Source: Betaproteobacteria bacterium RIFCSPLOWO2_12_FULL_62_58 (GTDB lineage Bacteria > Pseudomonadota > Gammaproteobacteria > Burkholderiales > SG8-41). From it: a stretch of 64,000 nt of DNA. The translations under genes and the position numbers were made by a program. The notes under the pieces were generated by a model, which saw only the letters and a program-made list of their open reading frames with translations, was not told the DNA's origin and searched no databases. Below, one piece after another: positions 5,756 to 16,707 of the stretch. Numbering within the stretch: the first letter of the stretch is position 1; each line of letters opens with the position of its first letter. The stretch spans positions 1 to 64,000 of the forward strand of contig MERI01000027.1 of the NCBI GenBank assembly GCA_001772005.1. Reading direction: 5' to 3'.

Positions 5756-5806
5756 AATTGATGTAAATCAATTATCGATGGCGCCAGCAGCGTAGCAGCC
5801 TAGAAT
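5756..5806 (+). promoter_or_regulatory. FNR/ANR-type box and promoter for the PAS-LuxR gene
   Basis: TTGAT-GTAA-ATCAA at 5758-5771 matches the FNR consensus TTGAT-N4-ATCAA exactly and extends to an 18-base dyad (5756-5773). A -10-like TAGAAT lies at 5801-5806, and the PAS-LuxR start is at 5876. The centre of the box is about 48 bases upstream of the predicted start of transcription, slightly further than the classic activating position. Oxygen or nitrogen-oxide control of the regulator is the natural inference. Confidence 0.65.
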
Positions 5807-5875: not shown

Positions 5876-6523
5876 ATGCCCTCGCTTACCGATCTGCTTC
5901 TACGCACGGTCGACGGGATTTTTGCGGTCGATCCGCGCCAGCGCATCGTTTTCTGGAACACGGGCTGCGAACTGTTGTTCGGCGTCCCCTCCCGACAGGC
6001 AATTGGTCAGCCCTGTAGTTCGGTAGTGCGGGGCAAGAATTCCGCCCAACAGCCATTCTGCGGCGGTGTGTGTTGTATCGCGAATTTTGCCGAGGGGGCC
6101 AACATTCCGACTGCTTTTCCGCTTCGGGCATATAACGCCCGCGGCCAGGAAATGCGCTTGAACGTCAGCCTGCTGCTGGTGCCATCAGTCCGCAAGGACC
6201 AGCGGCTTTGCCTGCACCTGCTGCGCCATGGGGAGGCGATAGACTCGGCGCTGGCGTTGCAGACCGAGGTGCGGCCGGCGCGGCCTAATCACGCTCGCAA
6301 GGATGTTCATCACCCGGCCCCCGTCAACACCTGCGGACTGACCGCGCAGGAACAGGACATTCTCAAATTGCTGGCGGAGGGTCTCGCGGTGCGGTCCATA
6401 TCCCGGTTGAAGAATATCAGCGAGGTCACGGTACGTAACCACGTGCAGCATATCGAGGCGAAGCTCGCGGTTCACAGCCAGGCGGAAGCCGTCGCCTACG
6501 CTTACCGGCACGAACTTGTCTAG
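5876..6523 (+). CDS. PAS-domain LuxR-type regulator with a cysteine cluster
   Basis: The 215-residue product has an N-terminal PAS domain (about residues 1-125) and a C-terminal GerE/LuxR helix-turn-helix (about 153-215: LTAQEQDILKLLAEG, then SEVTVRNHVQHIEAKL). The PAS domain holds Cys31, Cys47, Cys62, Cys66 and Cys67. The closely spaced 62/66/67 group suggests metal, Fe-S or persulfide sensing. There is no receiver domain, so it is not a classical response regulator. The start at 5876 is set by AAGGAGGA 5-12 bases upstream; a longer frame from 5828 lacks this. It heads the sulfur-trafficking island and is the best candidate activator for the two dyads at 6876 and 15512. That link is inference. 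Confidence 0.85.
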   Translation: MPSLTDLLLRTVDGIFAVDPRQRIVFWNTGCELLFGVPSRQAIGQPCSSVVRGKNSAQQPFCGGVCCIANFAEGANIPTAFPLRAYNARGQEMRLNVSLLLVPSVRKDQRLCLHLLRHGEAIDSALALQTEVRPARPNHARKDVHHPAPVNTCGLTAQEQDILKLLAEGLAVRSISRLKNISEVTVRNHVQHIEAKLAVHSQAEAVAYAYRHELV

Positions 6524-6554: not shown

Positions 6555-6830
6555 ATGACAGTAAAAAAGATCGCCGTGCTGGTGCGTGACCGTCAGAGCG
6601 AAGCGCTGCGCATGGCGCTGGGGCTGACGCTGGTGGATGACTTGGTCGATGTTTACGTGCTCGACCGCAAGCTCGAGGAGGAAAAGGAAGATCTCATGAA
6701 CCTGGAGCTGATGAAGGACATGGGAATGAATATCTACTCGAACCGCCCGGACAACTCGAGCGCGGAGTATCGCGCCACCGAGGAGATTGCGCAGCGGCTG
6801 CTCGAGTACGATCACATTCTCCCGTACTGA
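6555..6830 (+). CDS. DsrE-like small protein without cysteine
   Basis: The 91-residue alpha/beta protein begins MTVKKIAVLVRD, and its overall pattern resembles the DsrE/DsrF/TusCD fold used in cytoplasmic sulfur relay. It contains no cysteine, so it cannot itself carry a persulfide and would have to be a structural partner. The start at 6555 follows GGAAGGAGGGG; a longer frame from 6516 reads through this site and is rejected. It lies 31 bases after the PAS-LuxR gene and probably shares its transcript. The family assignment is from fold pattern only. Confidence 0.65.
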   Translation: MTVKKIAVLVRDRQSEALRMALGLTLVDDLVDVYVLDRKLEEEKEDLMNLELMKDMGMNIYSNRPDNSSAEYRATEEIAQRLLEYDHILPY

Positions 6831-6875
6831 ACAACCAAATTCGACACGCTGCGAACGCAATCCGCCCGTAGCGTG

Positions 6876-6922
6876 AATGATGTAAATACATCATTCTCAT
6901 CCCCGGCCGGCCCCTCTATATT
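6876..6922 (+). promoter_or_regulatory. Dyad AATGATG-N6-CATCATT with -10 element upstream of dsrE-like gene
   Basis: A perfect 9-base inverted repeat spans 6876-6895, and TATATT at 6917-6922 fits a -10 element. The centre of the dyad is 31.5 bases from the first base of the -10, putting it near -43 relative to transcription. LuxR-family activators commonly bind 18-20-base dyads at about this place. The same motif and the same spacing recur at 15512-15560 before the rhodanese gene. A GTG at 6873 would start translation ahead of the dyad and is therefore unlikely to be used. Confidence 0.7.
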
Positions 6923-6953
6923 GCCCGGAAGCAACCGAGGCGGGAGCGGGCGC

Positions 6954-7259
6954 GTGGCAAAACTGGGAATCCTGGTAACTACCGACCGGCACCTGACGCA
7001 TATCCAGGGGCTCACGCGGGCGGCATTGGCGCGGGGTCATGAGGTCATCGTTTTTGTCATGGACGGGGGCACGCGGTTGCTGCAAGACGCCGGCTTGACC
7101 GGCTTGGCCGGCCTCCCGGGCGTGACCTTGAGCCTATGCGAACACAGCGCTAAGCGGCATGGAATCGCGACCGAAGCGCTGTCGGCGGCGGTCGTCTGCG
7201 GCAGCCAGTTGAATAACGCCATGATGAATCACGAGGCCGACCGCGTCATCGTCATGTAG
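6954..7259 (+). CDS. DsrE-family sulfur relay protein
   Basis: The 101-residue product starting at GTG 6954 (VAKLGILVTTD) has the DsrE fold pattern, with two cysteines: one in LSLCEHSAKRHGI, where DsrE proteins carry the persulfide cysteine, and one in AVVCGSQLNNAMM. DsrE-type proteins accept and pass on sulfane sulfur, typically from TusA. The GTG start was chosen because the dyad operator and -10 lie upstream of it and GGGAGCGG precedes it; the longer frame from 6873 would translate through the operator. A 56-residue partner gene follows after 20 bases. Confidence 0.75.
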   Translation: MAKLGILVTTDRHLTHIQGLTRAALARGHEVIVFVMDGGTRLLQDAGLTGLAGLPGVTLSLCEHSAKRHGIATEALSAAVVCGSQLNNAMMNHEADRVIVM

Positions 7260-7279
7260 GCCGGTGCGGAGGGAGCGAG

Positions 7280-7450
7280 ATGCGGGTTCTGCAAATACTG
7301 ACTGACGGGCCGGGGACGGCGTCCGGCGACGTGCTCAAGCTGCAGACCACGGAACACGAGGTCGAGGTGATCGACTTCACGAACATGGACGTTTCCTACG
7401 AGGAGTTGGTCGACAAGATTTTCACCAGTGACAAAGTCATCTCTTGGTGA
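7280..7450 (+). CDS. Very small DsrH/TusB-like protein, 56 residues
   Basis: An ATG at 7280, preceded by GGAGGGAG, opens a 56-residue frame beginning MRVLQILTDGPG and ending DKVISW. The beta-alpha start and C-terminal tryptophan recall the DsrH/TusB subunit of the DsrEFH/TusBCD relay, but the protein is about half the usual length and has no cysteine. It lies 20 bases after the cysteine-bearing DsrE gene, so the two are almost certainly co-translated. Coding is supported by the ribosome binding site and position. The family call is tentative. Confidence 0.6.
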   Translation: MRVLQILTDGPGTASGDVLKLQTTEHEVEVIDFTNMDVSYEELVDKIFTSDKVISW

Positions 7451-7550
7451 CGGCGCCCGGGCATCCGGCGCGATACCCACGGCGGGGTCGCCGCACCATC
7501 GCCGGCACTGTAGTAACGGGCAGAGGAACGTGTAAGAGCATGGGACGAGC

Positions 7551-9314
7551 ATGAGCGGCATTCGGACGCGGGATCTCGATTGCGGATCCCTGAGAAACGG
7601 GATGCCCGCGGCCTTTTTTCGTCCCGCCCGTACCAAAGCCGCACGGCACGCGGCAATCCTGCAACGCGTTCTTGTCGGCCTGGTCGCACTGTCAAGCTTG
7701 ACGCTTCTCTTTGCGTTCCGCGGGCTCGATGACAACCGCTTCGTGAGCTGGCAATGGGTGTTCGCGCCCGCCGATCTGCCCGCGCTTCTGTCCGTCGCGG
7801 CAACCGGCGTGCTTCTCGCCTACTGGTTCTCGCGCGCGCCGTGGCCGGCGGACCGTGCCGCGCCTGCGTTGGGCGTTTTCGCTTTTCTTGCGGCCCTGCC
7901 CTTCTGGGGCGAGCCGGAGGTGATCGTGGATGCCGCACGCTACTTCGTGCAGGCGAAGCACCTTTCTCTTTTCGGCGTCGGCCATTTTCTGAACCAGTGG
8001 GGCCAACAAATCCCCGCCTGGACCGATTTGCCGTTGGTGCCTTTTCTCTACGGCCTTCTGTTCAGCCTGGCGGGGGAGACGCGGCTCGCGATCCAGGCGT
8101 TCAATTCGCTGCTCTTCGCGGGATCCGTAGTTCTGACGTACTTGGTGGGGAAGGCCCTGTGGGACCGGGCCACGGGCCTTTGCGGCGCGGTGCTTCTCCT
8201 CGGCATGCCGTACCTGTACACCCAGGTGCCCCTCATGCTGGTCGACGTGCCGGCAATGTTCTTTTTCACCTTGACGGCCTATGCCGCGATTACGACCGTG
8301 GCCCGGGGCGGTGTCCCGTGGCTCTTCGGGGCAGCCGTAGCGCTCGCCCTGGCAATGCTCGCCAAATATTCCGCTTGGATCGCGCTCGCCTTCTTCCCGG
8401 TGCTGGTCCTGGTCAGCGCCCGTCACGCGCGGCGCAAGGCGCTCGCCCGCGCCGGCGCAATCGTGCTGGGGGCGGCCGTGCTCTCCGGTGCGTTCCTGCT
8501 CGGGAAAGCGGGGGTTGTCGCGAGCCAGCTCGCGCTGTTCTGGAGCTACCAGGTGCCGGCACTGAGCCGCTGGCAGGAGGGCATCGCCTCGACCTTCTTC
8601 TTCCAGATCCATCCCTTCATCACACTTGCGGCGTTGGGCTCGGTTGCGCTGGCGATCATCCGAAAAGACTCGCGCTACGCCGGGGTCGGCGTGATCGTGC
8701 TGCTCGCGCTCATGCTCGGAGTGAGGCGCATCCGCTATCTCGTCATCGTAATGCCGATGCTGGCCCTGATGGCCGCCTACGGGTTGCGCGCCATCCGGGA
8801 AATCCCGACACGCCAGTTCATCGCGTCGTGCGCGGCGGTCTCGGCGCTGGCCGTGGCCGTGGCCGGTTACCTGCCGTTCCTGCGCACAACGAGCGCCATG
8901 AATCTCAAGCAGGCGGGCGAGGTGCTCGCCGCAATGGGCGGTGACACGGTCGAGGTCATCGTGCTGCCTGCAACGCGTTCCCGTGTCAATCCGGCGGTGG
9001 CGGTTCCGCTCCTGGATCTGTTCACGCACCAGCGTCTCGCCTATCGCCGCGACCTGAGCCCGGCGGTATCGCCGCAGCCTGGCGTGGAGGCGACCTCGCC
9101 GGTTCGCTTCACCTGGGAGGTCCCGGATGCGCCCTTCTTTCTGATAGCGCCAGAGCCGCACGCGCCGGTGGTACTGGTGATGAGCGCGGCGGATCAGCCC
9201 GTGCCGCAAGCGGTGGCAAATCGCCTCGCGGGTTATGCTGAGGCCCGGCAGCTTATGGTGACCGATCGGGTATTCCGCTTCCAGACCCTGGTGCGCATTT
9301 ATCGACCAACGTGA
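7551..9314 (+). CDS. Integral membrane glycosyltransferase, GT39/ArnT-like
   Basis: The product is up to 587 residues, with about a dozen hydrophobic segments. An early loop reads RYFVQAKHLSLFGVGHFL, and a periplasmic C-terminal part follows. This is the architecture of the dolichyl-phosphate-mannose/ArnT glycosyltransferases, which use polyprenyl-phosphate sugars at the outer face of the inner membrane. The start is uncertain: ATG 7551 and ATG 7602 are both weakly preceded, and the bases between them contain a GGGATC/GATCCC hairpin and a T-rich run that could terminate the upstream DsrE transcript. It lies between the DsrE genes and the sulfur transporter. Acceptor and donor are unknown. Confidence 0.7.
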   Translation: MSGIRTRDLDCGSLRNGMPAAFFRPARTKAARHAAILQRVLVGLVALSSLTLLFAFRGLDDNRFVSWQWVFAPADLPALLSVAATGVLLAYWFSRAPWPADRAAPALGVFAFLAALPFWGEPEVIVDAARYFVQAKHLSLFGVGHFLNQWGQQIPAWTDLPLVPFLYGLLFSLAGETRLAIQAFNSLLFAGSVVLTYLVGKALWDRATGLCGAVLLLGMPYLYTQVPLMLVDVPAMFFFTLTAYAAITTVARGGVPWLFGAAVALALAMLAKYSAWIALAFFPVLVLVSARHARRKALARAGAIVLGAAVLSGAFLLGKAGVVASQLALFWSYQVPALSRWQEGIASTFFFQIHPFITLAALGSVALAIIRKDSRYAGVGVIVLLALMLGVRRIRYLVIVMPMLALMAAYGLRAIREIPTRQFIASCAAVSALAVAVAGYLPFLRTTSAMNLKQAGEVLAAMGGDTVEVIVLPATRSRVNPAVAVPLLDLFTHQRLAYRRDLSPAVSPQPGVEATSPVRFTWEVPDAPFFLIAPEPHAPVVLVMSAADQPVPQAVANRLAGYAEARQLMVTDRVFRFQTLVRIYRPT

Positions 9315-9339
9315 GCGCGCATGTTCGAGAGGATCTACC

Positions 9340-10758
9340 ATGAGTGAGACCAAGAGGGGGTTCTGGGCGTTCGCGATCGTGGGGATTCTGCTGCTCATCA
9401 CAGGGGCAACTTACGCCTACCACGAGTACTACCTTTATCTCACGGTCTACCTGTGGTTCGGCTTCATCTACGGGATGTGCCTGCAATACGGCCGCTTCTG
9501 TTTCTCCTCGGCGTTCCGCGATCTGTTCGCCGTGGGCGTCCCGCGCATGGCCGTCGGCATCATGATCGCGATCGCACTCTTCGCCCTCGTGGGCGCGTTC
9601 GTAAGCGCCACGGGGATCAGCACCTTCCACTCCGCGCCCACCAGCGTGCACGCAGTGATCGCCGGGTTCATCTTCGGGGTGGGGATGTGTTTCTCGGGCG
9701 GTTGCGCCTCGGGCTCCATGTACAAGACCGGCGAGGGCAACATGAATGCGGCGCTGGTAGTGCTCTCCATCAGCGTCACCCAGGCCGTCTTCGTGGACAT
9801 CGGAGGGTGGGCGAACAATCTCGTGCCGGAATCCTGGACGAAGTCGGCGGCGGCGAAGGGGCTGCCGGCCTCGATCACCGTAACCGACGGCTGGGTGGAC
9901 CAGTATCTTGCCGGTTACGTGTGGGACCAGCCGGTGCTGAGCTTTGCCAAAATGCTGGGCTGGACCGACGATTCCGTCATTGGCGCCTTTCTCGGCAACT
10001 TCCTGGTCGGCGTGGTGCTGCCCGGCGCGCTGTTGCTGGTAGTTGTCTACTTCTTCTGGTCGCGTCGCGCTTTCATGAGGAAGCGGCTTACGGCGGGCCA
10101 GACGCGCCCCCGTTTTCGCGACGAGCTCGCCGGTTACTGGGCCATGATCATGGCCTCCAAGCGCACCGCCATCGCCGGACTCGCCCTCGGCATCGCGGCG
10201 GGGTTGCACATGTACGCGATCCAGGGCTTGCGCGTGAAATACGGTGTGCGCAACGCCGGCGCCTTGCTCGAACGCCTCGGTTTCGACTTCGGCCTTTCGG
10301 TGAACGGCACGGTGTTCGACCCTGGCTACTGGTATGTGACGACCCAGGAGGCGCAGTGGGTCGGCTGGGCGATGCACAAGCTCGGCTGGAACCAGATGGA
10401 CAACATCTTCTTCGGCTTCAACAACGGCATCCCCAATCCGCTCATCAATCCCGCCGACTGGATGTCGATCGCGCTCTTCGGCGGCGCGGCGGTGATGGCG
10501 CTGCTGCACAACGAGTTCAAGTTCAAGAAGCCGACGCTCGAGACCGCCACTTGGGCGGTCATCGGTGGCGCGCTCATGGGCATCGGCTCACGGTTGGGCT
10601 TGGGCTGCAACGTTGGCGCCTTTTTCGTGCGCGTCTCTCAGGGCGATCCCTCGGGCTGGCTGTTCGGGCTCGGCATGGTCGGCGGCGCCTATATCGGCGT
10701 CAAGTTTTTCAACTGGTGGACCGAGCGCCGGATGGCACGGGAGTTTGCATTGAGCTGA
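9340..10758 (+). CDS. YeeE/YedE-family (TsuA-like) sulfur compound transporter
   Basis: The 472-residue membrane protein is double-length for the family, with the repeated YeeE/YedE signatures FSGGCASGSMYKTGEG (Cys122) and LGLGCNVGAFF (Cys423), plus Cys47, Cys54 and Cys117. In TsuA, the thiosulfate transporter of this family, conserved cysteines lining the path are required for uptake. Thiosulfate or another sulfane-sulfur anion is therefore the likely cargo. A central hydrophilic loop (about residues 245-265) joins the two halves. TusA follows 19 bases downstream, the usual partner arrangement, and GAGAGGATC precedes the start. Confidence 0.9.
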   Translation: MSETKRGFWAFAIVGILLLITGATYAYHEYYLYLTVYLWFGFIYGMCLQYGRFCFSSAFRDLFAVGVPRMAVGIMIAIALFALVGAFVSATGISTFHSAPTSVHAVIAGFIFGVGMCFSGGCASGSMYKTGEGNMNAALVVLSISVTQAVFVDIGGWANNLVPESWTKSAAAKGLPASITVTDGWVDQYLAGYVWDQPVLSFAKMLGWTDDSVIGAFLGNFLVGVVLPGALLLVVVYFFWSRRAFMRKRLTAGQTRPRFRDELAGYWAMIMASKRTAIAGLALGIAAGLHMYAIQGLRVKYGVRNAGALLERLGFDFGLSVNGTVFDPGYWYVTTQEAQWVGWAMHKLGWNQMDNIFFGFNNGIPNPLINPADWMSIALFGGAAVMALLHNEFKFKKPTLETATWAVIGGALMGIGSRLGLGCNVGAFFVRVSQGDPSGWLFGLGMVGGAYIGVKFFNWWTERRMAREFALS

Positions 10759-10777
10759 ATAACGGAGGAGATGCATC

Positions 10778-11023
10778 ATGAAATTCGAGAAAAGCGGCGA
10801 GGGCCAGTACCTTTTGGACGTGAAGGGCTACGTCTGCCCCCATCCGCAGCTCTATACGAAGAAGGCGCTCGAACGGCTCAAGCCGGGCGAAGTGCTGGAA
10901 GTGCAGTTCGACAATCCGTCCTCGGGCGAGTCCATCGCCACGATGTGCGACAACACCGGCGATGAGGTTCTGGACCGCAAGCAAGAGGCCGGGCTGTTCG
11001 TCTGGCACGTTCGCAAGGCCTGA
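10778..11023 (+). CDS. tusA: TusA-family sulfurtransferase
   Basis: The 81-residue protein shows the TusA signature LDVKGYVCPHPQLYTKKAL, with the persulfide-carrying cysteine at position 20 in a CPxP motif. TusA proteins receive sulfane sulfur and pass it to DsrE or other acceptors in the cytoplasm. It is preceded by GGAGGAG and directly follows the YeeE/YedE transporter, so imported sulfur is probably loaded on it and handed to the DsrE protein at 6954. The symbol denotes family; the cell may have another TusA for tRNA thiolation. Confidence 0.9.
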   Translation: MKFEKSGEGQYLLDVKGYVCPHPQLYTKKALERLKPGEVLEVQFDNPSSGESIATMCDNTGDEVLDRKQEAGLFVWHVRKA

Positions 11024-11038
11024 CAGAGGAGCCGCGCC

Positions 11039-11224
11039 ATGCGCAACAGTCTCTGGATCATCATCACCATCGTGAGCGCCCTCCTGGGATTTGTCATGGG
11101 CTACGCCACCGCTCCGATGATGGAGACCGGCATGCTCAGCGGCAAGGGCGGAAAGCCCGCGTCCAAGATCGAGAGCACCAAGGAACTGAAGCAGTACTAC
11201 AAGGATCTGTTCAAGGAGAAGTGA
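11039..11224 (+). CDS. Tiny single-span membrane protein, first of a paralogous pair
   Basis: The 61-residue protein has one hydrophobic span (about residues 5-27, LWIIITIVSALLGFVMGY), a glycine-rich linker and a charged tail ending ELKQYYKDLFKEK. It follows TusA by 15 bases with GAGGAG before the start. The next gene encodes a recognisable paralogue with the same GFVxGY motif at the end of the span and the same ELxxxYxxLxK ending. I do not know a function. The position suggests a small accessory subunit of the transporter or of a membrane sulfur-relay complex. Confidence 0.75.
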   Translation: MRNSLWIIITIVSALLGFVMGYATAPMMETGMLSGKGGKPASKIESTKELKQYYKDLFKEK

Positions 11225-11225
11225 G

Positions 11226-11465
11226 ATGACCCCGCACGCCAAGGTCCGCCAGGACGAACAAACGGCTAACACGGGTTTGTGGGCCGCCATCGTGCTCATC
11301 GCGACCCTGTTCGGATTCGTCCTGGGCTACAGCGTGTCCACGCGCACGGGTGTCGAGCCGGGCTATTTCGACGCACCCGAGGCAGGCGGCTACGGCGTGG
11401 CGCCGACCGCCGCGCCGGGCATGACCGAGGAACTTCGGAAACATTACGAAGGGCTCATGAAATAG
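11226..11465 (+). CDS. Tiny single-span membrane protein, second of a paralogous pair
   Basis: The 79-residue protein has a polar N-terminus, one membrane span (about residues 18-36, LWAAIVLIATLFGFVLGY) and a C-terminal ELRKHYEGLMK. It shares with its upstream neighbour the LW...GFVxGY span, a following glycine/glutamate stretch and the terminal ELxxxYxxLxK, so the two arose by duplication. Its start overlaps the end of the previous gene's context (1-base gap), implying translational coupling. The function is unknown. Confidence 0.75.
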   Translation: MTPHAKVRQDEQTANTGLWAAIVLIATLFGFVLGYSVSTRTGVEPGYFDAPEAGGYGVAPTAAPGMTEELRKHYEGLMK

Positions 11466-11537
11466 GGCCCGGACTTTCCGGCAGCCTCTCGCACGCGGAT
11501 CGCCGGTGCCGGGTATGCCTCTTCGAGGAATCGACCG

Positions 11538-11753
11538 ATGCGAAAAATTCTTCTTGCCGTAGACGCGTCCAAGGGCTCGGATGCGTGCGTAAAGGCGTGC
11601 GCCCGGATTTTCTCGGCCGCGCCGCCGGAATCGGTAATCCTGTTGCACGTGCAGCAGCTTGGGGGTGGGCCGACCTTGATGCACGACCGAATGGGCGACA
11701 TCGTGAAGGCGGTCGTGAGCAAGGCCGAAGTGCCGGTGTTGCTGGCGCGCTAG
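11538..11753 (+). CDS. Half-length universal stress protein (UspA-like)
   Basis: The 71-residue protein begins MRKILLAVDASKGSD, the beta-1/nucleotide-contact motif of UspA proteins, and ends VVSKAEVPVLLAR, their last strand. The middle of the usual roughly 140-residue fold, including the GxxG-x9-GS ATP-binding loop, is missing. It may be a functional minimal dimerising unit or a product of internal deletion. It is the last gene of the transporter-TusA transcript before the FAD-enzyme remnant. A role in sulfur metabolism is suggested only by position. Confidence 0.65.
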   Translation: MRKILLAVDASKGSDACVKACARIFSAAPPESVILLHVQQLGGGPTLMHDRMGDIVKAVVSKAEVPVLLAR

Positions 11754-11782
11754 CGCGGCGCTCCACGACACCTCGCTGCGGA

Positions 11783-11896
11783 ATGAGCGGGCAGCCTGTG
11801 AATCCGGTGGACGGCGACGTCGTCATCTGTGGCGGCGGGCTCGCCGGACTCGGTGCGCCGCGCGCTGCTTTTCCCCGCACTGGGACGAACCCATGA
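11783..11896 (+). pseudogene. N-terminal remnant of an FAD-dependent oxidoreductase
   Basis: ATG 11783 opens a 37-residue frame containing DVVICGGGLAGL, a textbook dinucleotide-binding fingerprint of flavoprotein oxidoreductases, and then breaks. In the next frame the bases read as RRALLFPALG, a plausible continuation, so a short internal deletion or frameshift is likely. The frame ends at 11896, overlapping the start of the radical SAM gene, and the rest of the enzyme is absent. It is a degenerated gene, not a small functional protein. Confidence 0.6.
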
Positions 11897-13365
11897 GATG
11901 TGCGCTTATCATTCCGGCCTGGGCGCCGGAGGAAATCTTTTCTTCCCGCACCGCGCCCTCGCAGGTCAATTACTGGCAGCCCCTCGGGACGCTCTATGTC
12001 GCCGCCTGCCTGCTCCAGGCCGGCCATAACGTGAGGCTGTTCAACGGTGCCTTTCTCACCCACGAAGAAATTCTGCGCCAGGCGCGCGAATTCAAACCGG
12101 AAGTGGCGGGCATTTACGCGACGGCCTTCGGCTGGCCCGGAGCATTGAAAACCGCGGCCGATCTCAAGCGCATGGATCGAAGCATGTTTGTATGCGCTGG
12201 CGGCCCGTACCCGGTCGCGGCACAGGAGCGCTGCCTGGCAAATGGCGCTGCTCACTTCGACGCGGTGGTCACCGGCGAAGGCGAGCACACCGTGGTCGAA
12301 ATTCTGGACAGGCTCGCGGCTCGCCGAGGATTGGAAGGCGTTCTGGGCGTCGCATTCCGGCAGGGAGAGCGCATCATCAAGAATCCGCCCCGGCCGCTCA
12401 TCGAGGACCTGGATGCGCTGCCCTTCCCGGCGCGCGCGTTGCTGGAAGGCGCGGAGCGCTGTCCGCCTCCACCCGCCACTTACCGGCGCACGCCCGTGGC
12501 TACCATGATTACCTCGCGCGGCTGCGACCGCCGTTGCCTGTTCTGCTTTCAGATCGACCGGGAGCGCAAAGCGGGACGCCGCGGTGTGCGCCTGCGCAGC
12601 GTCGCGAACGTGCTGCTGGAAATCGAGTCCTGCCTCAAGCAGGGCTACCGCGAAATCAAGTTCCTGGACGATTCCTTCGCGGCCGATTACGACCGCGCCA
12701 TGCAAATCTGTCAGGCGATCCGGGCGCGACGGCTCGATTTCACCTGGTTTGCCTCGGCCTGTGTCAACCAGGTAGACAAGCCCTTGCTTCAGGCCATGAA
12801 GGACGCCGGCTGCTGGGCAATTCTCATGGGCGCCGAGAGCGGCGTGCAAAAGAACCTCAACACGCTGCGCAAGGCCTGCACCCTCGATCAGATCCGGCAG
12901 GCGGTGCGCGCAGCCAAAGAGGTGGGGCTGCAGGTAAGCACGCCCTTCCTCTTTGGCATTCCCGGCGAAACTTTCGCCGACGGCTTGAAGACCATCGAGT
13001 TCGCCATCGAACTCGATCCCGATCTTACGAACTTCCATTGCCTGACGCCTTTTCCCGGGACCGATCTTCACGACCGGTGCGAGAAATACGGCCGTCGGTC
13101 TTCGGAGCTCGCAGACTACACTTACCAGGGCGCGGCCTTCGCGCCCTATACCATGACGCGCGAAGAGATCCAGCAGTTGCGTCAGCTCGCGTTCAGGCGC
13201 TTCTATTCCCGGCCCGCCTTCCTGCTGCGCAGGCTGCTGCAAGTTCGCAGCCTGCGCGAAGTCCGGATTGCGGCGCGCGGCCTGAAGAGCCTGTTCTGGC
13301 TGTGGGCTGCCAGGAATCTTTTCTATCGCGGCAAGAAGGAGGAAGCGGTCTCGCGCCCCGGCTGA
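11893..13365 (+). CDS. B12-binding-domain radical SAM enzyme
   Basis: The 490-residue protein has an N-terminal cobalamin-binding-type Rossmann domain (about 1-150). The radical SAM core follows, with Cys211, Cys215 and Cys218 in RGCDRRCLFC ligating the [4Fe-4S] cluster and binding S-adenosylmethionine. GAESGVQKNLNTL and FGIPGETFAD are typical later core motifs. This architecture is shared by enzymes of lipid, cofactor and bacteriochlorin/hopanoid modification (BchE/HpnP-like), including methyltransferases and cyclases. The histidine-containing DxHxxG cobalamin motif was not seen, so cobalamin binding is unproven. It converges with the second radical SAM gene, and the two 3' ends overlap by 43 bases. 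Confidence 0.85.
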   Translation: MRCALIIPAWAPEEIFSSRTAPSQVNYWQPLGTLYVAACLLQAGHNVRLFNGAFLTHEEILRQAREFKPEVAGIYATAFGWPGALKTAADLKRMDRSMFVCAGGPYPVAAQERCLANGAAHFDAVVTGEGEHTVVEILDRLAARRGLEGVLGVAFRQGERIIKNPPRPLIEDLDALPFPARALLEGAERCPPPPATYRRTPVATMITSRGCDRRCLFCFQIDRERKAGRRGVRLRSVANVLLEIESCLKQGYREIKFLDDSFAADYDRAMQICQAIRARRLDFTWFASACVNQVDKPLLQAMKDAGCWAILMGAESGVQKNLNTLRKACTLDQIRQAVRAAKEVGLQVSTPFLFGIPGETFADGLKTIEFAIELDPDLTNFHCLTPFPGTDLHDRCEKYGRRSSELADYTYQGAAFAPYTMTREEIQQLRQLAFRRFYSRPAFLLRRLLQVRSLREVRIAARGLKSLFWLWAARNLFYRGKKEEAVSRPG

Positions 13366-14453
13366 GCGGGGGCAAGCCGCAGGTACTCGCGCGCCAACGC
13401 CGGGTATAGCCTCGGATTGAAGAGTATGTTGGTGATGAAGTAGCACTCATGAGTGCAATAACAGCGTCCCTGGTGGATGGAATCAAGGATGTGCCGCGCG
13501 CGGGTGCTGCCCAGCACCCGGCGCACGTCGTGGCCGTGCTCGCGCAGGTTTCCCAGGCTGTGCGGCAGCATCTCGCACGCGAAGAGTTCCCCACTCTCCG
13601 TCAGAACCAAATTCAGCCGGCCGGCATAGCAGGGGGTCTGGCGCCTCTGTTCGACGAGGGTGCGGTAAATCATGCGCCGCTGGAGGATGTCCTGCGCCGC
13701 CTTGAGCCGCCCGCCATTGAAGCGATAGATCGTGGCCGTGCGCGCTGTAAGCGCCTCTTCGAGACTTGCGGCAGCCTGACGGTACTTGTCCGGATCGACG
13801 TCCTTGCAGCGCGGATCGGGCGGGTTGCCGCGCACGAGGGAAATGGTGTGCGTGCGTAGATTCGGCAGCCCGCGCACGAAGCCGACGAGCGCGTCCATTT
13901 GGTCCTGGTTATCGCGGAACAGGACCGTGTTGATTCCGAGCTCGAAGTTCGGGTAGCGCTCCGGGAGTTTTGACAGCAGGCGATAGGTTCGCATCGCTTT
14001 CTCAAAGCCGCCGGGTGTGGCGCGAAGCCGGTCGTGCTCGCCGCCAATGCCGTCGAGCGAAACCTTGACGACCACGGTACTGTTGCGGCAATGACTCAGG
14101 ATCTGTTCGGTTCTTTCTGCGATCAGCTCAGGGAGCAGGCCGTTGGTGGAGTAAAGCATGATCGCAGGGCGGTTCGCGGCATAGAACGCGCGGCTCACCT
14201 CCACCAGGTCCTTCCGCAGATAAGGCTCCCCGCCGGAGAAGGCGAGCCACAGAAGCCGGCCCAGTGATGATGCGGTCCGCCGGACCTCTTCCAGTGAGAA
14301 TTCCTCAGACTTGGCCTCCGCGCGGTCCGCGCCGTTCAGGTAAAAGCAGAAAGGACAGCGGGCATTGCAGCGGCGTGTCACGAAAAAAGTGAACTGGATC
14401 GGCCGCCGCTTCCAGATGACCGAAGGCAGATGACGAAACGGCGAGTACCTCAT
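13323..14453 (-). CDS. Radical SAM/SPASM-domain enzyme
   Basis: The 376-residue protein has the radical SAM cluster motif at Cys29, Cys33 and Cys36 (RRCNARCPFC). A C-terminal SPASM-like region follows with TPCYAGRLNLVLTESGELFAC and CYCTHEC, which would hold auxiliary Fe-S clusters. SPASM enzymes modify peptides, proteins or small molecules. The start at 14453 is set by its ATGA overlap with the stop of the glycosyltransferase upstream, meaning the two are translationally coupled. The longer open frame reaching 14696 is shadow of that gene. The substrate is unknown. Confidence 0.85.
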   Translation of the reverse strand: MRYSPFRHLPSVIWKRRPIQFTFFVTRRCNARCPFCFYLNGADRAEAKSEEFSLEEVRRTASSLGRLLWLAFSGGEPYLRKDLVEVSRAFYAANRPAIMLYSTNGLLPELIAERTEQILSHCRNSTVVVKVSLDGIGGEHDRLRATPGGFEKAMRTYRLLSKLPERYPNFELGINTVLFRDNQDQMDALVGFVRGLPNLRTHTISLVRGNPPDPRCKDVDPDKYRQAAASLEEALTARTATIYRFNGGRLKAAQDILQRRMIYRTLVEQRRQTPCYAGRLNLVLTESGELFACEMLPHSLGNLREHGHDVRRVLGSTRARHILDSIHQGRCYCTHECYFITNILFNPRLYPALAREYLRLAPAQPGRETASSFLPR

Positions 14454-15451
14454 CGGGGATTCCCCGAGCGAAAAGCCCTGGCGAGAAAGAGCGCGGCGCC
14501 GCCGATGGCGCCGGTGCCCACGGCCAGCGGATAAACGAAAAGGTAGTACAACGTCGCGGCCGCGGCGAACAACCGGCCTCCGGCTGCGCGAAATCCCCGC
14601 AGCAGCCCGCGGTTGACGTGCAAATCGCCGGCGACCAGAGCGAATGTGAGCCCGAGCCAGGCTGGCGCAGCCGTCAGGAAGTAAGCGCCGAGACACAGTG
14701 TCCCGATAAAGTACGCCGCTACGCTAGCCTTGAGCTCGTGAGAGGCCGTCCCGGAGTCGGCGAATAGGTCTCTGTTGCGCAGCGAATACAGGGCCCAGTA
14801 CATCGCCTTGACGCAGGCGTTGCGCAGGGAGCGAAGCAAGGTGAAGTTGAAAATGTGCCGCACCTGGATGGCGGGATCCATCACGAGCCGGCATCCGGCG
14901 CGGCGCAGGCGGTGGCTGAATTCCACATCCTCGAGAATCGGCAGGAAGCCTTCGGCAAAGCCGCCGTGCCGGCGAAAAGTCTCGGCGTAGATCGCCAGCG
15001 CATGGGTCGCGACGTAGTCGGGATCGGCGGCCCGCTTGGTTTCGGAGTAGTGGATGAACGCCGACTGGAACCGGCTGAAAAAGGAGTCGTCGCAGGGCAG
15101 AGGGGTGTAGGTGCCGCCCGCGACCGTCCGCGGGTCGTATGCCGAGAGCGCTTGCCAGGCCAGGGCCAGCGTATCCTCGCGCAGCAGGCAGTCGGCGTCG
15201 GTAAAAAACAGCATTTCGCCGCGGCTGTGCGCCGCCCCCGCATTCCTTGCTCCGGCGGCGCCGTGATGGCGGGCGAGCCGGATCAGCCGGCAGGGAAACC
15301 GGCGGATGATTTCGGCGGAGTTATCGCTGGACGCATCGTCAACCACGACCACCTCGAAGCTTTTTTCGAAGCGCGAGGTAAAGGCGGCCTCCAGGCACCG
15401 GGCGATAGTCGCCGCGCCGTTGCGGTTCGGAATGATGATCGAGATAAACAA
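14450..15451 (-). CDS. Family 2 glycosyltransferase with C-terminal membrane segments
   Basis: The 333-residue protein opens with the GT2 nucleotide-sugar fold (ISIIIPNRNGAATI, VVVVDDASSDNS). It has the DxD-type motif FFTDADCLL and an ILEDVEFSHRL acid motif. Two or three hydrophobic segments near the C-terminus anchor it in the inner membrane. It overlaps the SPASM radical SAM gene by 4 bases, so the two products probably act on the same molecule. Its promoter lies in the region also holding the second AATGATG dyad. The acceptor is unknown. Confidence 0.85.
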   Translation of the reverse strand: MFISIIIPNRNGAATIARCLEAAFTSRFEKSFEVVVVDDASSDNSAEIIRRFPCRLIRLARHHGAAGARNAGAAHSRGEMLFFTDADCLLREDTLALAWQALSAYDPRTVAGGTYTPLPCDDSFFSRFQSAFIHYSETKRAADPDYVATHALAIYAETFRRHGGFAEGFLPILEDVEFSHRLRRAGCRLVMDPAIQVRHIFNFTLLRSLRNACVKAMYWALYSLRNRDLFADSGTASHELKASVAAYFIGTLCLGAYFLTAAPAWLGLTFALVAGDLHVNRGLLRGFRAAGGRLFAAAATLYYLFVYPLAVGTGAIGGAALFLARAFRSGNPR

Positions 15452-15511
15452 GATTGAGTCGTAAGGATCGGCCCGCCTTTACCAACATATTCATCGCGTT
15501 CACCCCACAGC

Positions 15512-15560
15512 AAAATGATGCATATGCATCATTTTCCTGGACGTGGGCCAAGTGTCTAAT
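15512..15560 (+). promoter_or_regulatory. Second AATGATG-N6-CATCATT dyad with -10 element, before the rhodanese gene
   Basis: A perfect 24-base palindrome occupies 15512-15535, with the same AATGATG/CATCATT arms and 6-base spacer as the dyad at 6876. TCTAAT at 15555-15560 fits a -10 element, and the centre-to--10 distance is 31.5 bases, identical to the first site. The site lies between the divergent glycosyltransferase (start 15451) and rhodanese (start 15679) genes, so it could act on both; the minus-strand side has only a weak -10 candidate. Confidence 0.7.
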
Positions 15561-15678: not shown

Positions 15679-16707
15679 ATGGACAGTAAACTGATCTATC
15701 GATGCGGCGTTACGGGGCTGCTGGCACTGGCGTTCGTCGTGTGGGCTCCGGTGGCCGCCGCGAAGTGGGCGAATCCGCAACTTCTGGTTACGGCTGAAGA
15801 ACTGCAGAAAAACATTGAAAAACGCGATTGGGTGGTCGTCGACTGCCGTAGGCTCCAGACCTATCTCAAGGGCCATATCCCGGGCGCGATCAGCCTAGGC
15901 AAGCCGTGCGGCGAGGCCTTGCGAGATCCTACCTCGCGGATCTTCAAGGACGTAAAAAAGTACGAAAGCCTGTTCGGCAAGGCGGGTATCGCGAATAACA
16001 CCCATGTCGTCGTGTACTCGTACGACGACGACTTGAGAGACGCGACAGTCGCCTTCTGGGTAATGGAATACCTAGGCCATGACGGCAAGGTGCATCTGCT
16101 GAACGGCGGGCTGGACGCCTGGCGCAAGGCGGGCGGCCGGCTCGGTGATAAACCGACGATAAAGGAGCCGACGACGTTCACGGCGAAGGTGGTGAAGAGC
16201 CGCTACGCCACGACCGACGAGATCCTGAAGATTGCCAACGGACAGGTGAAGGGCGTGCAGCTCGTGGACTCCCGCACCGGGAAGGAGCACAAAGGCGAGG
16301 ACATCCGCGCGCTGCGCGGCGGCCACGTGCCGAACACCAGTCTGAACGTTTCGCACCTGGAAACCCTGCTCAAGGTCAAGGACCCCAAGACCGACAAGGA
16401 GACGTACATCGGCTACCTCGATCCGGACTTGGCGGAGAAGGCTTTCGGTAAGCTCGACAAGAACATCCGCACCATCGGCTACTGCCAGACTGGCACTCGC
16501 TCGACCATGACCTACTTGCAGTTCCGGCTCATGGGGTTCAAGGATCCGGCCAACTGGGACGACTCCTGGCAGGTCTATGGATCGACCATGGGCTATCCGG
16601 TGGCCGACGAACAGTGGTACGACTTCGCCAAGGTCAACTCGGACCTGAGCAGCCTCCAGAACAAAGTCAAAGCACTCGAGGCCGCCGTAAAACCGGCCGG
16701 CAAGTAA
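15679..16707 (+). CDS. Periplasmic tandem-rhodanese sulfurtransferase
   Basis: The 342-residue precursor has a signal peptide (about residues 1-28, ending VAAA) followed by two rhodanese domains. The C-terminal domain carries the active cysteine at 269 in GYCQTGTRSTM. The equivalent loop of the N-terminal domain reads VVYSYDDDLRD and lacks cysteine, so only the second domain is catalytic, as in thiosulfate sulfurtransferases. It would move sulfane sulfur from thiosulfate or polysulfide outside the cytoplasm. The start at 15679 is fixed by AAGGAGGAG; the longer frame from 15454 would read through the palindrome. A short coiled-coil-like tail (about 322-336) ends the protein. Confidence 0.9.
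   Translation: MDSKLIYRCGVTGLLALAFVVWAPVAAAKWANPQLLVTAEELQKNIEKRDWVVVDCRRLQTYLKGHIPGAISLGKPCGEALRDPTSRIFKDVKKYESLFGKAGIANNTHVVVYSYDDDLRDATVAFWVMEYLGHDGKVHLLNGGLDAWRKAGGRLGDKPTIKEPTTFTAKVVKSRYATTDEILKIANGQVKGVQLVDSRTGKEHKGEDIRALRGGHVPNTSLNVSHLETLLKVKDPKTDKETYIGYLDPDLAEKAFGKLDKNIRTIGYCQTGTRSTMTYLQFRLMGFKDPANWDDSWQVYGSTMGYPVADEQWYDFAKVNSDLSSLQNKVKALEAAVKPAGK

Follow-up and report, generated by a model that had tools for sequence, protein, structure and literature searches.

Streptomyces PAS-LuxR regulators of the PimM group are pathway-specific proteins that pair a PAS domain with a single LuxR helix-turn-helix (HTH), and their sites are 16-bp palindromes in the -35 region of the target promoters (PMC9774167). 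LuxR-type activators use lux boxes, palindromes of ~20 bp that lie near -42.5 and overlap the edge of the -35 (PMC4471428). The cluster of yeeE, tusA, dsrE and small conserved genes known as YTD, recast lately as yeeE-tusA-dsrEFH type II (PMC12998232, PMC9751629, PMC13293266), counts among the leading candidates for sulfur disproportionation and for sulfur oxidation; what it does is in dispute (PMC12998232, PMC13293266). A literature search found no described regulator of this cluster; the words 'regulator' and 'LuxR' are absent from PMC13293266, and 'regulat' is absent from PMC12998232. Here, a cluster of this kind is described from Betaproteobacteria bacterium RIFCSPLOWO2_12_FULL_62_58, in a window of 64,000 nt (positions 1 to 64,000 of the forward strand of contig MERI01000027.1, assembly GCA_001772005.1), together with a PAS-LuxR gene and two copies of the dyad AATGATG-N6-CATCATT. 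The regulator has the PAS domain and single HTH of the Streptomyces proteins, and the dyads lie at a position similar to that of their sites. With a probability of about 85%, judged on sequence, the dyads are operators of the PAS-LuxR protein, a dimer of which would sit near -43.5 and activate the dsrE-led and rhodanese promoters.

Dyads and promoter geometry

5876..6523, + strand: PAS-LuxR regulator of 215 aa, the proposed binder (Pfam GerE 8.9e-14, PAS 2.6e-5)
6875..6896, + strand: candidate operator 1, 10-bp arms with a 2-nt centre, upstream of the dsrE-like gene, centre at ~-43.5
6917..6922, + strand: -10-like hexamer TATATT, first base 31.5 from the dyad centre, predicted transcription start ~6929
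15512..15535, + strand: candidate operator 2, perfect 24-bp palindrome, centre at ~-43.5
15555..15560, + strand: -10-like hexamer TCTAAT, first base 31.5 from the dyad centre, predicted start ~15567

The motif AATGATG-N6-CATCATT occurs with 0 mismatches at 6876-6895 and 15514-15533, and these are its only two copies in the window. Operator 1 reads GAATGATGTAAATACATCATTC (6875-6896) and operator 2, which lies between a divergent glycosyltransferase gene and the rhodanese gene, reads AAAATGATGCATATGCATCATTTT (15512-15535). The preliminary description of this DNA had placed both dyads at the right coordinates and erred only in the arms of the first, which are 10 bp long and had been given as one base shorter. 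It had also called for a genome-wide scan, and this was carried out as a set of pattern scans that allowed up to 3 mismatches. In the 5.88-Mb genome, the only two sites that match AATGATGYANNTRCATCATT with fewer than 3 mismatches are the dyads of the window, and the next-best match, AATGATGCAACAACACAATT, has 3 mismatches. The looser pattern TGATG-N6-CATCA has 7 copies, of which the 5 besides the two dyads have dissimilar cores. Both exact sites are inside the regulator's own island. A dyad with a GC core (ATGATGGTGCAGCATCAT or its complement) is recurrent in many genomes of the family (G041, G049, G053, G056, G059, G012 and G000:C216) and is found also in the host genome itself; such variants (ATGATG-GTGCAG-CATCAT and similar) are left out of the site counts.

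The YeeE protein was used to gather 80 further islands, which come from Pseudomonadota, Nitrospirota, Rokubacteria and Desulfobacterota. The dyad stands at the same two positions in homologous islands of Beta-, Gamma- and Alphaproteobacteria and of some Nitrospirota. With the window and G035 included, there are 52 instances, 27 at site 1 before dsrE and 25 at site 2 before the rhodanese gene, and only 3 matches of the same quality fall elsewhere. Two other genera of the family are among the carriers: both sites are present in G010, and in G035 site 2 is exact while site 1 differs at one position. On average, the motif is 74-82% identical to that of the window, and the flanks are 25-29% identical, the level of unrelated DNA. 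Directly behind site 2 in G010, and before the rhodanese gene, there is a short MerR/HTH_17-like gene (L037, ~14500-14900).

After dereplication, 44 sites give the consensus AAATGATGCAAATGCATCATTTCC, with half-sites ATGATG-N6-CATCAT in which T-G-A-T-G is nearly invariant. The only conserved downstream element is T-A-n-A-A-T-T at +31.5, so that the spacing of 31.5 bases reported earlier for the two window sites is both exact and kept across the set. At this offset the mean match to TATAAT is 3.70/6, compared to at most 2.4 at every other offset, and 28 of the 44 sites match in at least 4 of 6 positions against a background of 6%. Taken on its own, each of the two site sets shows the hexamer (z 4.5 for site 1, z 4.8 for site 2). 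At site 1 it is present on the gene side only. A weak -10 on the left side of site 2, toward the glycosyltransferase gene (z 3.1), is suggestive only. In both site classes the -35 is poor, with TTYCC matching on average in 3/6 positions at a gap of 17 bp from the -10. When the hexamer is taken as -12 to -7, the dyad centre falls at ~-43.5. With start sites predicted in this way, a dyad at a fixed distance near -42.5 next to a poor -35 has the layout of a LuxR-type, class-II-like activator site, and the combination of fixed -10 distance and weak -35 points to an activator. LuxR-family activators do bind dyads at about this place, as had been suggested at the outset, given that lux boxes centre near -42.5 (PMC4471428).

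Two other explanations of the motif itself were considered and rejected. The geometry of the 44-site consensus excludes an FNR site (TTGAT-N4-ATCAA) and a CRP site (TGTGA-N6-TCACA); the half-site spacing had already been said to differ from that of an FNR box, and true FNR boxes do occur separately from ATGATG-N6-CATCAT. An RNA element is excluded as well, with no Rfam match in the window and with the dyad located upstream of the -10.

Co-distribution of the dyad and the regulator gene

The dyad tracks the PAS-LuxR gene. Among 48 testable islands, those in which the stretch for the regulator gene is covered, it is present in 25 of the 27 that carry an ortholog of the regulator and in none of the 21 that do not. 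Supported branches of a YeeE tree carry at least 4 changes in the presence of the regulator, and each time the dyad changes with it. A profile built from 26 PAS-LuxR orthologs was also searched against an even class sample of 369 genomes and matches 9 of these, 7 strongly (E < 1e-80) and 2 weakly (E ~1e-45). All 7 close orthologs have an exact ATGATG-N6-CATCAT beside the gene, while neither island nor dyad is found within the 3.6 kb read around the genes for the two weak homologs. Elsewhere, the exact AT-core dyad is present in 1 of the other 360 genomes (G438).

Taken with the 52 instances before dsrE and rhodanese genes, these distributions bear out several claims of the preliminary description. 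The dyad recurs in front of the same genes in the related genomes that it had proposed to scan, the two sites can be regarded as a regulon, and the PAS-LuxR protein is the likely binder, given the counts of 25/27 and 0/21 islands and 7/7 close orthologs.

In islands of Nitrospirota and Desulfobacterota without the PAS-LuxR gene, upstream genes resemble a receiver-containing response regulator and a sensor kinase, or other sensors. The response-regulator-like genes encode 444-445 aa and look NtrC-like. All these identifications were made by eye only; going by them, the regulator appears to have been swapped from lineage to lineage. Look-alikes of an NtrC-like response regulator, a sensor kinase or both are located upstream of a conserved gene for a 91-aa protein in L076, L115, L119, L124, L129 and L135.

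The proposed switch and its alternatives

We infer that the protein binds the dyads as a dimer, that it activates rather than represses, and that its PAS domain responds to sulfur or to redox state. In short, a PAS-LuxR dimer would bind the 18-24-bp palindrome, centred at ~-43.5 and overlapping the edge of the poor -35, and would activate the sigma-70 promoters that precede the dsrE-led yeeE-tusA operon and the rhodanese gene. An FNR-type input would drive the PAS-LuxR gene, with self-control in some lineages, and the PAS domain would sense its signal by means of conserved cysteines.

The protein has the architecture of a one-component regulator, with a PAS domain (Pfam, 13-52) followed by one GerE/LuxR HTH (155-209) and no receiver domain. 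In an AlphaFold2 model with a mean predicted local distance difference test score of 77.9, the PAS domain and a four-helix LuxR HTH are joined by a linker, 122-151, that is disordered. The best full-length Foldseek matches to the model are VqmA and EL222, a LOV-HTH protein, and the separately matched domains appear similar to FixL/DOS for the PAS domain (Z ~14) and to VraR/DegU for the HTH (Z ~13). Three cysteines of the PAS domain, Cys47, Cys62 and Cys66, are kept in at least 90% of 26 alignment rows and are present in all 27 full-length orthologs. It is possible, and is offered tentatively, that these cysteines sense sulfane sulfur or redox state, such that a persulfide-responsive LuxR-type activator under FNR control integrates lack of oxygen with sulfur supply to switch on YTD/dsrEFH-II, and that other phyla have swapped in two-component systems.

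Upstream of the regulator gene there is one further candidate element.

5758..5771, + strand: FNR-type box TTGATGTAAATCAA, centre 111 bp before the PAS-LuxR start codon

Boxes of the form TTGA-N6-TCAA recur upstream of PAS-LuxR genes, with 8 boxes in 28 regions compared to 0.15 expected and an additional box in G003, and control of the regulator gene by an FNR-type protein is therefore likely. Copies of the dyad lie before the PAS-LuxR gene too, in L057, L058, L078 and L080 and, with one mismatch, in L113, as expected for autoregulation; no -10 is found at +31.5 on either side of these dyads, in what are only 5 cases. There is no gap between FNR box and dyad upstream of PAS-LuxR in L078 and L080 (TTGATCTACATCAATGATGTTATTGCATCAT), an arrangement that suggests cross-talk between FNR and autoregulation.

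Several points weigh against dedicated operators of a PAS-LuxR activator. The association of dyad and gene over the 48 islands has a Fisher p of 1.1e-11 by a test that ignores relatedness; just 4 independent pairs can be drawn from the tree, and although all 4 are concordant, the sign test gives p = 0.125, the strongest value attainable with four pairs. G003, of the same genus as the host, has the PAS-LuxR gene and an FNR box, and its genome has no dyad at up to one mismatch; the gap between its 91-aa gene and dsrE has shrunk to 54 bp, and its contig stops short of site 2 (L160, G003:C44). A related group of islands, L068, L069, L075 and L081, is without site 1; L068 and L075 retain site 2, and for L069 and L081 site 2 is off their contigs. 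Exact dyads are present in G093 and G438, genomes without a close PAS-LuxR, and are treated as chance or as sites of another regulator. Finally, an operator that overlaps the -35 could also suit a repressor. The dyad of G093 (ATGATGCAAATGCATCAT, L040 10965-10982) is ~600 bp before an sHdr-type run of rhodanese, TusA, DsrE2, HdrC and HdrB genes, and toward the rhodanese gene it has no -10 at the spacing seen elsewhere.

The PAS-LuxR protein might bind the dyads as a repressor that blocks the -35 region and comes off in response to a sulfur signal. The overlap of the dyad edge with the -35, and the right flank TTYCC at its 17-bp gap to the -10, would allow for this, and the regulators known for sulfur oxidation, SoxR and sHdrR of Hyphomicrobium, act by repression (PMC12423496). 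However, the position of a repressor can drift, whereas the strictly fixed -10 spacing, like the mean -35 of 3/6, suits an activator better, and lux-box and PAS-LuxR activators bind at this very place (PMC4471428, PMC9774167). Repression is judged unlikely.

It is more improbable still that a different regulator encoded elsewhere, of FNR/CRP, NsrR-like or ArsR type, binds the dyads and that the PAS-LuxR gene is a passenger. The half-site gap of TGATG-N6-CATCA does equal that of CRP-type sites, and in G093 the exact dyad precedes the sHdr-type sulfur operon without a close PAS-LuxR. Against this, none of the 21 testable islands without the gene has the dyad, true FNR boxes have a different geometry and occur separately, and just two sites in the genome are what a local, dedicated regulator would have, not a global one.

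That the two dyads are alike by chance, or by a shared recent duplication of promoter DNA, is a negligible prospect, since two window matches at 3 mismatches are indeed unremarkable (38 of 100 shuffles of the window) but the exact sites are unique in the genome, the 52 instances fall at two fixed positions with unalignable flanks, the motif is conserved across genera and phyla, and the 31.5-base spacing is conserved too, which also settles the earlier claim that motif and spacing are unlikely to be due to chance.

The sulfur island and related systems

Besides the PAS-LuxR gene, the island holds the following genes.

6555..6830, + strand: conserved 91-aa protein, candidate DsrF/H-like subunit of DsrEFH type II, conserved beside DsrE in islands
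6954..7259, + strand: DsrE/DsrF-like sulfurtransferase, first gene behind operator 1 (Pfam DsrE 1.5e-5)
7280..7450, + strand: conserved 56-aa protein, putative DsrH-like subunit, its order behind DsrE conserved
starts 7551: PMT-type glycosyltransferase
9340..10758, + strand: YeeE/YedE-type sulfur transporter (Pfam Sulf_transp 6e-39)
10778..11023, + strand: TusA sulfurtransferase (Pfam TusA 1.8e-18)
starts 11893: B12 radical-SAM protein
minus strand: a further radical-SAM gene and a family-2 glycosyltransferase
15679..16707, + strand: rhodanese/mercaptopyruvate-sulfurtransferase-like protein, gene behind operator 2 (Pfam Rhodanese 9.3e-26)

Membership of YTD is indicated by Pfam matches for YeeE/YedE, TusA and the DsrE-like protein and by the conserved 91-aa and 56-aa neighbors in synteny, a gene order common to Desulfobulbaceae and Nitrospirota loci too. 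The 91-aa protein has no Pfam or NCBIfam match, and its candidate role as a subunit, like the DsrF and DsrH folds supposed for the small proteins, is drawn from PMC13293266. The rhodanese also matches the NCBIfam 3-mercaptopyruvate sulfurtransferase at 1.1e-18, under the family cut-off. With full-length dsrA and soxB in its genome, the host very probably oxidises sulfur.

Between tusA and the B12 radical-SAM gene, the window has an apparent remnant of an FAD-dependent amine-oxidase-like gene (11783-11896, MSGQPVNPVDGDVVICGGGLAGLGA...). An intact counterpart of ~470 aa is located between the same two genes in L053 (4914-6350) and L050 (3697-5109), and L049 (14805-15107) has an apparent remnant as well, which suggests parallel decay. 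A short universal-stress-protein-like open reading frame lies between tusA and the radical-SAM gene (11538-11753), and a longer relative is found upstream of PAS-LuxR in L151 (632-1111).

A named regulator, an exact operator and predicted starts make the physiology of the cluster testable, including the inducing signal and whether it acts under anoxia, and the operator offers a way to search other genomes for additional pathway genes.

The islands resemble the described YTD or yeeE-tusA-dsrEFH type II loci in that yedE/yeeE, tusA, dsrE and small conserved proteins occur together (PMC9751629, PMC12998232, PMC13293266), but those of Pseudomonadota described here add the PAS-LuxR gene, glycosyltransferases, the B12 radical-SAM protein and rhodanese. 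SoxR and sHdrR govern sulfur-oxidation genes, but these ArsR-type sulfane-sulfur repressors belong to another protein family (PMC12423496). Compared to lux boxes, the dyads have their centre at ~-43.5, are unrelated in sequence and go with a PAS-domain sensor. The PimM group recognizes the consensus CTVGGGAWWTCCCBAG in antibiotic clusters, whereas AAATGATG-N6-CATCATTT stands here before sulfur genes. VqmA, the PAS-LuxR receptor of Vibrio and the top full-length match by Foldseek, is an activator with a palindromic site (PMC8284805; PDB 6ide, 6ugl), but it differs in a site centred on GG-N6-CC, in its ligand, DPO, in having 16% identity and in having no link to sulfur. The island would hold the first predicted switch for a sulfur-oxidation or disproportionation cluster, a new regulon under a known kind of regulator.

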